64,000 nt of DNA, taken from contig JAADIG010000137.1 in the NCBI GenBank assembly GCA_013151445.1, positions 1-64,000 of the forward strand, written 5' to 3'. Shown here piece by piece: positions 6,830 through 10,224 of this stretch. A program made the position numbers and the translations under genes. The DNA is from Actinomycetota bacterium (GTDB lineage: Bacteria > Actinomycetota > Acidimicrobiia > Spongiisociales > UBA5794). The notes under the pieces are model-generated. The model was not told the origin of the DNA. It did no database searches and worked only from the letters and a program-made list of their open reading frames with translations. The stretch's first letter is position 1. Every line of letters starts with the position of its first letter.

Positions 6830-6861
6830 GGGGTTCTCCGTTGGTGATCGAGGTGAGGCAT

Positions 6862-6888
6862 AAGAAAACCCTCCGCCGGGCGGAGGGT
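6862..6888 (-). terminator. Intrinsic terminator in the cimA leader (attenuator)
   Basis: Minus strand: ACCCTCCGC-CCG-GCGGAGGGT-TTTCTTA between a short Thr/Ile-rich ORF and cimA. Confidence 0.8.
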
Positions 6889-6923
6889 GATGGGCGCACA
6901 CGCGGATGTTGAGGCGTGTACGC

Positions 6924-6968
6924 CTACGTAATAATCTCGATGCGGGTTGTGCTCGTCCAGTTCGTCAT
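6924..6968 (-). CDS. Thr/Ile-rich leader peptide MTNWTSTTRIEIIT of cimA
   Basis: ATG ACG AAC TGG ACG AGC ACA ACC CGC ATC GAG ATT ATT ACG TAG: 5 Thr and 3 Ile in 14 aa, followed by hairpin plus terminator, then cimA. Confidence 0.75.
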   Translation of the reverse strand: MTNWTSTTRIEIIT

Positions 6969-7004
6969 GACAGCCAGTATGCAGGAACCTTCGCTCAGCG
7001 TCAA
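6969..7004 (-). promoter_or_regulatory. Promoter of the cimA leader, probably leaderless
   Basis: Minus strand: TTGACG (6999-7004) - 17 bp - CATACT (6976-6981) - 7 bp - ATG. Confidence 0.65.
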
Positions 7005-7010
7005 CATCCG

Positions 7011-8933
7011 TCATCTGGCCGCATCGTTGAAACAGCTCGTTGTTGCGGCACATGATGTGACATCACCAACGACTGAGGCGATTAACTCGGCGTACGCACG
7101 TTGGCCCTCGGGGCTGAGATGGATGTTGTCGCGCCCGAGCAGGCTGCGGTCCGACTCGGCAAGCAACTTCCATTCGATGACTCGCACACTATCCGTCGAA
7201 TCGGATCGGTTGCGGATCAGTTCGTTGATCGATGATTCCCAGCGCCGATCGATTCGAATGGTGAGAAGGTAGATCCTCTTTGCGCCTGCTGTTGCGTCAA
7301 TCAGCGTATCGAGCATGTCGGAACTGACCGGGCCGTTGTACCCCAGATGCACGATCACGATGTCGTCGACGGTGCCATCCATAGAGCGGGCGCGCAGTAC
7401 ACCCACGGCGTTGGTCCACGAGCGGGCCTTGAGAGCATCAACCTCGATTGCGTCGCCGAACAGTGCCTGGAGTTCCTCCTGGGCACCAAGCATTACCGAG
7501 TCGCCGATCGCGAACACCGTCGCGGATGCCGGTGTGACTATCGGGTCGGGTGCTCTTGGTGGCATGGTGCGACGCACGGTCGTCGGCTCCACTGGCGGTG
7601 GAACAACCAGCAACGTGGTGGTCGAGGGAGGGACAGCTACGGGTTCGGACCCTGGTTGAGGGGCGGCGGTCGTCGGGATCGTCAACACGTTGGCCGACTC
7701 GATGAGGGTGGTCGTGGACTCAAAACCGGGAGTCTCCGGGGCCGGTGAAGCGAGGACGATTGCCAACGGCATCGAGAACACCGCTATGTAGGTGGTGACG
7801 ACTACCCGCCACGCCGAACGTGGGACAAGACGTTCGCGTCCGGAGCGAACCCGTTGCCACCAGCGCCCGAGCGCTCCGTTGCGGACCGGCATTTCGATCC
7901 AACGGTACGAGATCTCCGTGAGGATGAGTGCAACAGCGAGACGCACCACGGTGACGATCTTCGGGTCCCAGAACACATCGATGTTGGGTCGGGTGAACAC
8001 CACGACCGGCCAGTGCCACATGTACAGGCCGTACGACCTGAGCCCCACCCACCGCATCGGGGCAGAGCCGACGATCAACCGCAGCGACCGTGAGCCAACG
8101 ACGCCGACGATCGCCGCCGCCGATGCCACACCGGTGAGGAGGAACCCACCGCGGTAAAGCCACGGATCGAATCCGTTCACCGTCGCAACCATCCACACCA
8201 GCATTCCGAGACCCAGGACCCCAACGAGGCCGGGCCAGCGGCGCTTGTGTTCAACAACCGGGAGGCGGTGGCGGAGGAATCCGAGGGCAACACCGATGAG
8301 AATTCCCGCGGCACGCGTATCGGTGCCGTAGTACACCCGCGACGGGTCTTCGAACGGCACGAATAAGTTGGCCATCCACCACGTGGAGGCGAGTGCAATG
8401 ACCAGGACCAACGTCACGGTCAGAGCGGTCCGAACTTTTCGCAACACAAAGAACAGGACCGGCCAGACGATATAGAACTGCTCCTCGACCGCCAGAGACC
8501 ACAGATGTCGCCACAGCGAGGGTCGGGCAAAGGTCTCGAAGTACGACTCGTTGTATCCGATCAGGAACCAGTTCGTGAAGTAGCCCAACGCTGGGAACAG
8601 CTCACGCTGAACCCGGTCGACCTCCGTGGGCACAAAGGCAGCCACATAGGCGGCCGTTACGGCAAGAAAGACAAACAGGGCCGGCAGGAGGCGTCGAGCC
8701 CGGCGCTTCCAGAACTCCCTGATATCTATCCTGCCGGTCCGTTGATACTCCGCGACGAGGAGCGACGTGATGAGGTACCCGCTGATAGTGAAGAACACAT
8801 CAACACCAAGGAATCCTCCGGGGGTGGATAACCAACCGAAGTGGTAGGCAACGACGGCGAGAACGGCGAAGGCACGGATGCCGTCGACGCCGGGTTCATA
8901 GCGCAACGTTGGAGATTTCAAGGGTTCAGTCAC
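7011..8933 (-). CDS. Acyltransferase-3 (OafA-type) with C-terminal SGNH domain
   Basis: LRYEPGVDGIRAFAVLAVVAYHFGW...SLAVEEQFYIVWPVLFF..., C-terminal VFAIGDSVMLGAQEEL. The ORF track extends to 9152, but GTG at 8933 (VTEPLKSPTLRYEPG) is the likelier start. Confidence 0.88.
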   Translation of the reverse strand: MTEPLKSPTLRYEPGVDGIRAFAVLAVVAYHFGWLSTPGGFLGVDVFFTISGYLITSLLVAEYQRTGRIDIREFWKRRARRLLPALFVFLAVTAAYVAAFVPTEVDRVQRELFPALGYFTNWFLIGYNESYFETFARPSLWRHLWSLAVEEQFYIVWPVLFFVLRKVRTALTVTLVLVIALASTWWMANLFVPFEDPSRVYYGTDTRAAGILIGVALGFLRHRLPVVEHKRRWPGLVGVLGLGMLVWMVATVNGFDPWLYRGGFLLTGVASAAAIVGVVGSRSLRLIVGSAPMRWVGLRSYGLYMWHWPVVVFTRPNIDVFWDPKIVTVVRLAVALILTEISYRWIEMPVRNGALGRWWQRVRSGRERLVPRSAWRVVVTTYIAVFSMPLAIVLASPAPETPGFESTTTLIESANVLTIPTTAAPQPGSEPVAVPPSTTTLLVVPPPVEPTTVRRTMPPRAPDPIVTPASATVFAIGDSVMLGAQEELQALFGDAIEVDALKARSWTNAVGVLRARSMDGTVDDIVIVHLGYNGPVSSDMLDTLIDATAGAKRIYLLTIRIDRRWESSINELIRNRSDSTDSVRVIEWKLLAESDRSLLGRDNIHLSPEGQRAYAELIASVVGDVTSCAATTSCFNDAAR

Positions 8934-9083: not shown

Positions 9084-9095
9084 TATGCTCGGAGT
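9084..9095 (+). promoter_or_regulatory. -10 element of the trpS leader
   Basis: GGGTATGCT-cggagt-ATG; TATGCT 6 nt before the leader-peptide ATG, no clear -35. Confidence 0.45.
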
Positions 9096-9134
9096 ATGAA
9101 CACGGCAGGCACGAAATGGTGGCGGGGCAACTAG
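9096..9134 (+). CDS. Trp leader peptide MNTAGTKWWRGN upstream of trpS
   Basis: ATG AAC ACG GCA GGC ACG AAA TGG TGG CGG GGC AAC TAG; tandem Trp codons followed by an intrinsic terminator and trpS. Confidence 0.78.
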   Translation: MNTAGTKWWRGN

Positions 9135-9160
9135 GGGCCCTCCATCGCGCACGAGCTTGT

Positions 9161-9193
9161 AACGCCGCCGGAGGAAATCCGACGGCGTTTTTC
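9161..9193 (+). terminator. Intrinsic terminator in the trpS leader (attenuator)
   Basis: AACGCCGcCGGA-ggaaa-TCCGaCGGCGTT then TTTTC; 12-bp stem with one mismatch. Confidence 0.82.
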
Positions 9194-9237
9194 GTTACCA
9201 ACAATCCGTACTGCGACAATGGCACAAGGAGCACACA

Positions 9238-10224
9238 GTGGAGACGAGGCAAAAGGTCTTCTCTGGTCTACAACCGACCGGAAATATCCATATCGGGAAC
9301 TACCTGGGTGCGTTGAAAAACTGGGTGAGTTTTCAGGACTCTTACGAGACCGTGTATTGCGTCGTCGACCTTCACGCAATCACCGTTCCGTATGATCCCG
9401 TCGAGTTCAAGAAGGACCGCATCGCCGCGGCGAAGGTGCTGCTGGCCATGGGCATCGATCCCGAGCGTTCCATGTTCTATTTCCAGAGCCAGGTCCCCCA
9501 GCACGCCGAACTGTCGTGGATTCTCGGAACGATGACCCCGACCGGTGTCTTGAACCGGATGACCCAGTACAAGGAGAAGGCGGACAAGGTGGGCGCCAAC
9601 CTTGGGCTCTATTCTTATCCTGTACTGATGGCCGCGGATATTCTGCTGTTCAACGCCGATCTGGTGCCCGTAGGGGACGACCAACGTCAGCATCTTGAGA
9701 TGGCGCGTGATCTGGCCGAACGATTCAACAACCGTTTCGGTGAGGTGTTTCACATCCCGGAGGCATACATCCCTGACGTATCCGCACGGATAATGTCGCT
9801 CACGGACCCGCAGGTGAAGATGTCGAAGTCCGATGCCAACCCGAAGAGCATGGTGCTTGTGCTCGACGTGCCGGATGCAATCAACAAGAAAATCAAGTCT
9901 GCCGTGACCGACTCCGATCCTGGCGTCCGATACGATCCGACCGAGAAACCGGGGATCTCGAACCTCCTCGAAATAATGTCGGCGTGTACCGGGGTGTCCA
10001 TCGACGCCCTGGTCGATGAGTATGCAACGAGTGGATACGGGGTTTTCAAGCAGGCAGTCGCCGATGTCGTGATCGAAGAATTCGCCCCGATCCGGGTCGC
10101 ATACGAACGGCTTGACGACGCGGACGTCGCCCGGATGATGCACAAGGGTGCCCTCGATGCGCGCATCGCGGCTGAGGCCTATCAGGCGAAGGTGCGCGCG
10201 GCTGTGGGACTCGACCGAATCTAA
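9238..10224 (+). CDS. trpS: Tryptophanyl-tRNA synthetase
   Basis: SGLQPTGNIHIGNYLGALKNW, KMSKS-like signature (VKMSKSDANP); GTG start after AAGGAG. Confidence 0.97.
   Translation: METRQKVFSGLQPTGNIHIGNYLGALKNWVSFQDSYETVYCVVDLHAITVPYDPVEFKKDRIAAAKVLLAMGIDPERSMFYFQSQVPQHAELSWILGTMTPTGVLNRMTQYKEKADKVGANLGLYSYPVLMAADILLFNADLVPVGDDQRQHLEMARDLAERFNNRFGEVFHIPEAYIPDVSARIMSLTDPQVKMSKSDANPKSMVLVLDVPDAINKKIKSAVTDSDPGVRYDPTEKPGISNLLEIMSACTGVSIDALVDEYATSGYGVFKQAVADVVIEEFAPIRVAYERLDDADVARMMHKGALDARIAAEAYQAKVRAAVGLDRI

Follow-up and report, generated by a model that had tools for sequence, protein, structure and literature searches.

A probable ribosome-mediated attenuator upstream of the tryptophanyl-tRNA synthetase gene trpS in Acidimicrobiia

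The stretch of DNA analysed here (the window) comprises 64,000 nt of contig JAADIG010000137.1 from an Actinomycetota bacterium of the class Acidimicrobiia (assembly GCA_013151445.1). The trpS gene, coding for tryptophan--tRNA ligase, is located on the plus strand at positions 9238–10224, with a GTG start codon at 9238 and a Shine-Dalgarno sequence AAGGAG at 9226–9231. It was identified with TIGR00233 at 325 bits (cut-off 177), and no other TrpS match was found in the genome. In a scan of named genome contigs, among which there are few close relatives, the nearest TrpS was that of Bacterium BMS3Bbin02, with 88% identity; the scan sufficed to assign the window to Acidimicrobiia. The gene upstream of trpS, at 7011–8933, is acyltransferase-like and divergent to trpS, and its conserved part starts near 8933 according to sequence reading. 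For this reason, the terminator described below cannot end the acyltransferase-like gene; its position is after the trpS promoter region and before trpS, where there is no other gene for it to serve. In the window, the acyltransferase-like gene sits between cimA and trpS; in a number of relatives, G007, G013, G017, and G049 among them, cimA and trpS are divergent and less far apart.

A short ORF, MNTAGTKWWRGN, is coded on the plus strand at 9096–9134 (ATG AAC ACG GCA GGC ACG AAA TGG TGG CGG GGC AAC TAG), with ATG at 9096–9098 and TAG at 9132–9134. The sequence TATGCT at 9084–9089, a putative -10 box of the TANNNT type conserved in relatives, is separated from this ATG by 6 nt. The tandem Trp codons TGG TGG at 9117–9122 would be the sensor codons, and they form the first half of segment 1 (9117–9128). 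Segment 2 (GCCCTCCATCGCG) is at 9137–9149 and has two possible partners for pairing, segment 1 and segment 3 (9161–9174); the latter consists of the 5' arm and the loop of a terminator. After a spacer of 26 nt from the leader stop codon, the terminator hairpin occupies 9161–9189 (AACGCCGCCGGA GGAAA TCCGACGGCGTT, plus T5); with its T run at 9188–9192, the intrinsic terminator 3:4 extends over 9161–9192 and has a predicted energy of -17.2 kcal/mol. Direct reading of the sequence thus placed the leader ORF, the terminator, and trpS where the first-pass annotation, made from the letters of the DNA, had them. A simple pattern scan for promoters and terminators found no sigma-70 promoter at the leader and missed this terminator, so the scan was not relied on.

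TrpS was searched in 60 relatives, and 53 upstream regions were read. The same device, namely a -10 box, a short ORF with one to three Trp codons, and a terminator, was found in 32 of about 53 trpS upstreams, all from the same order of Acidimicrobiia; the comparison of related leaders that the first-pass annotation had proposed thus revealed that both the leader ORF and its Trp codons are kept in 32 genomes of the order. Examples of the leaders are MNTTIMQWWWQRI, MKMTGRWWWRS, MALTQSWWWLQR, MELVGSWWWRQR, and MMITTSTQWWWSAV. Over all 32 leaders, which were chosen with the presence of Trp as a requirement, the distance from the first Trp codon to the last base of the stop codon is 12–27 nt; eight leaders have a single Trp codon. 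An automatic screen for ORFs of 8–16 codons with Trp within the last nine and a terminator no more than 45 nt away was positive in 30 of the 53 trpS upstreams, compared with 7 of 2000 windows drawn at random from the same DNA. The device is missing from about 20 relatives within the order. In six of these upstreams (L022, L035, L038, L039, L044, and L046), a TANNNT box is located directly before the trpS start (TATGCT-cgccgg-ATG in L022), and they look as if the leader was removed or never inserted. A possible decayed attenuator is present in L045 (G015) about 175 to 20 nt before trpS, with an ORF ending in IVTIVTNW before its stop codon, no ATG where expected, and a weak hairpin with a long loop.

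In 30 of 31 relatives, the TANNNT motif was found 10–16 nt ahead of the leader start (background, 0.6%); in the exception, L029, TACGCT lies just beyond this range. Because of the spacing of the -10 box to the leader start, we infer that the leader mRNA is leaderless, with transcription starting near 9096.

The full set of pairings known from classical attenuators was identified: the protector 1:2, the antiterminator 2:3, and the terminator 3:4. The antiterminator was absent from the description in the first-pass annotation; in the window, it pairs CCTCC at 9139–9143 with GGAGG at 9170–9174. When segments were permuted among relatives, with kinship ignored, the mean energy of the cognate 2:3 duplexes was -18.2 kcal/mol and that of the permuted ones -15.2 kcal/mol (sd 0.46, z about -6.6), and none of 20000 permutations was as good as the cognate set. 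The 1:2 duplex, again with kinship ignored, gave -19.0 versus -15.8 (0/20000, z about -6.3). The results were unchanged without five near-duplicates (z -6.3 for 2:3 and -5.8 for 1:2), and the variable part of segment 2 without its common GCGC motif also passed for 2:3 (z -6.0). Compared with dinucleotide shuffles across relatives, the z values were -7.2 for 2:3 and -7.6 for 1:2. Pairs of 2:3 that changed and still match are CCUCC/GGAGG in the window, GCCGCC/GGCGGC in L012, AGGGCC/GGCCCU in L028, CCGAGGUC/GACCUCGG in L019, and GAAUCGCCG/CGGCGAUUC in L043. The GCGC that recurs after segment 2 has a pairing partner in CGCC, at the base of segment 3, and this pairing would account for the conservation of GCGC. 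In the window alone, neither the 2:3 nor the 1:2 duplex was better than shuffles, and chance is therefore excluded only by the comparison across relatives.

These data bear on a rival reading, in which a plain intrinsic terminator, as the end of a small RNA or as a shield of trpS, happens to follow a chance short ORF, and trpS is transcribed from a promoter after the terminator. In GC-rich DNA, short ORFs rich in TGG can occur, and there are relatives that lack a leader altogether, but such a coincidence agrees poorly with the rarity of positive random windows in the automatic screen and with the covariation of both 1:2 and 2:3. Moreover, a trpS promoter situated only past 9193, which the first-pass annotation had named as evidence against attenuation, is not apparent: there is no TANNNT motif between the terminator and trpS in the window, and the distance from the hairpin to trpS is 28 nt or less in 13 of 32 relatives. 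This reading is considered very improbable. To the same low degree, leader translation could be coupled to trpS independently of Trp, for example as a general sensor of translation or growth, with TGG kept mainly for helix 1:2. The UGG codons are the 5' strand of this helix, so structure alone could favour GGUGG, and the eight leaders with a single Trp would fit as well. Against this, the single-Trp leaders hold the codon in frame and at a similar distance to the stop, and confident matches of the covariance model described below always have trpS downstream. T-boxes are frequent regulators of aminoacyl-tRNA synthetase genes in other phyla. That a riboswitch, either a T-box or another element binding tRNA or a metabolite, acts here in place of leader translation is hardly credible, as an Rfam scan of the entire window, T-box model included, gave no match, the element is about 100 nt long, and the ORF start, the in-frame Trp, and the stop are kept while the other sequence varies.

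The trpS leader is thus very probably a ribosome-mediated transcription attenuator of the trp type, as predicted from sequence and its comparison; the earlier reading of the tandem-Trp leader and terminator as attenuation is supported by conservation, pairing potential, and covariation. Control codons shortly before the leader stop, a terminator before the gene, the pairings 2:3 and 1:2, and an appropriate stall geometry were all found. The window RNA without a ribosome is predicted to fold into 1:2 (UGGUGG-C-GGGGC with GCCCUCCAUCG) and the terminator, at -42.5 kcal/mol (z -2.5). In the fold predicted for a ribosome stalled at Trp before synthesis of segment 4, CCUCC at 9139–9143 pairs with GGAGG at 9170–9174; when the ribosome is placed at the stop codon instead, it covers segment 2, and the predicted fold contains the terminator. 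Under an assumed leading edge of 13 nt, segment 2 is free with the ribosome at Trp and covered with the ribosome at the stop.

In the proposed mechanism, transcription would start at or beside the leader ATG and yield a leaderless leader mRNA. When charged tRNA-Trp is plentiful, the ribosome would pass UGG UGG, reach the stop codon, and cover segment 2, so that segments 3 and 4 would form the terminator and trpS would stay untranscribed. When charged tRNA-Trp is scarce, the ribosome would stall on UGG and occupy segment 1; segment 2, left free, would form 2:3 (CCUCC/GGAGG with a GCG/CGC extension) before segment 4 is made, and RNA polymerase would read through into trpS. If there is no translation, 1:2 and 3:4 would form and transcription would stop. 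We infer the position of the promoter, the translation of the leader, and the response to charged tRNA-Trp. In 30 of 32 leaders, arm 3 is predicted to pair with upstream sequence at P > 0.9 as long as segment 4 has not been transcribed. After the synthesis of segment 4, the terminator exceeds the antiterminator in stability in nearly all relatives, and a stalled ribosome does not remove this thermodynamic advantage (mean P(terminator) 0.90); therefore, the switch must be kinetic, with the choice made during transcription.

A covariance model was built from 20 of the trpS leader sequences. In the whole genome it has one match, at 9114–9196 (E 4e-9). In a class sample of 247 genomes, matches up to about E 1e-3 adjoin trpS on its upstream side, apart from L073, which is at a contig end (G024:C29:17-105), has the same score as the trpS match of that genome, and is followed by too little sequence for trpS. 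Five genomes neither used in the model nor previously inspected (L086, L087, L089, L090, and L096) carry the device before trpS with a -10 box, ATG, in-frame Trp, stop, and terminator, one of them matching at E 0.006. The element is present in six of the eight families sampled within the order. Outside the order but within the class, 30 trpS upstreams were examined, and no comparable leader with terminator was found. In a phylum sample of 297 genomes, in which the share of Streptomyces is not established, there was no trpS-upstream match outside the family of the window. Weak matches in other orders (L094, L095, L097, and L098) and in other classes (L129–L132) have no trpS alongside and were taken as chance. 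A trp leader was also looked for before trpE and trpC of this genome and none was found, trpE being located 40 nt after another gene; identity with a trp operon leader was rejected, since the gene is trpS and a trpE leader is absent. Tentatively, and with less confidence than in the attenuator itself, the device may be an order-wide leaderless attenuator that originated separately from the Streptomyces trpS leaders, uses Trp sensing for the charging enzyme only and not for Trp synthesis, and was repeatedly lost, some losses leaving the -10 box before a leaderless trpS.

A second leader was identified in the window before cimA, on the minus strand at 6830–6985, by sequence reading and comparison. 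The gene codes for citramalate synthase (TIGR00977, 670 bits). Its leader ORF with Ile codons, MTNWTSTTRIEIIT, is at about 6968–6924 on the minus strand and is accompanied by the -10-like sequence CATACT; a hairpin begins at the last base of the leader stop codon, and a terminator is also present. An Ile-rich leader end was found in 30 of 30 cimA upstreams read from the own order and in 14 of 24 from other orders, and nearly all conserved leaders have the same stop-codon hairpin and terminator. The stop-codon hairpin covaries strongly (z -12.5), whereas pairing of the region between stop and terminator with either terminator arm was not above chance (z +1.7 and +0.7); in contrast to the trpS device with its covarying antiterminator, the cimA leader is without a detectable one. 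A model of the cimA leader element has matches in 71 of the 297 phylum genomes. One match in the same genome, on the minus strand (L208 3495-3591, G000:C78), has the leader MSQTLNLVILR with the same stop-codon hairpin and a terminator before an ilvB-like gene, and the one match inspected from another class is likewise ahead of an ilvB-like frame. Because these two matches, including this second site in the genome, precede ilvB-like genes, the cimA leader is most likely the actinobacterial ilvB-type leader placed before cimA. The mode of regulation of the ilvB-type leader of Actinobacteria was described as unclear (PMC1262725). A literature search on cimA leaders found no paper.

Attenuators of trpS itself have already been described. 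For Streptomyces avermitilis trpS2, an attenuator was predicted by Seliverstov et al. 2005 (PMC1262725), similarly with leader peptide, antiterminator, and terminator before an actinobacterial tryptophanyl-tRNA synthetase gene; that case is one Streptomyces gene, whereas the device in Acidimicrobiia occurs in six families of one order and has a recurrent GCGC motif at segment 2. In S. lividans TK24, RNA-seq revealed trpL2-trpS with a leaderless single-Trp leader peptide, MMTRTCTQLWRAA (PMC8079986). It resembles the present device, which is likewise predicted to be leaderless, in its location before trpS, and its single Trp is shared by 8 of the 32 leaders of Acidimicrobiia, but no U-rich stretch follows it (PMC8079986), while the window device has a U tract. 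The trp operon leaders (trpL1-trpE) of Corynebacterium and Streptomyces have two to three tandem UGG, an antiterminator, and a GC-rich terminator, and the S. lividans one is leaderless (PMC1262725, PMC8079986); tandem UGG, antiterminator, and terminator are shared with the window, but there the controlled unit is trpE or the trp operon and here it is trpS. Control of a tRNA synthetase gene instead of a trp operon, put forward in the first-pass annotation, holds in that the gene is trpS, but its novelty was overstated, as such attenuation has been described for trpS and leuS of Streptomyces (PMC1262725, PMC8079986). No earlier report of trpS attenuation in Acidimicrobiia was found in the collection of papers searched.

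The device is a well-supported further case in Acidimicrobiia, and it extends ribosome-mediated trpS attenuation from Streptomyces to a largely uncultured class. Its comparative support, two mutually exclusive covarying helices in more than 30 genomes, is stronger than that of the earlier single-gene predictions. As its leader appears to be leaderless, the device would also offer a small natural system in which to ask how rapidly ribosomes have to load onto a leaderless mRNA to govern the polymerase in front of them.
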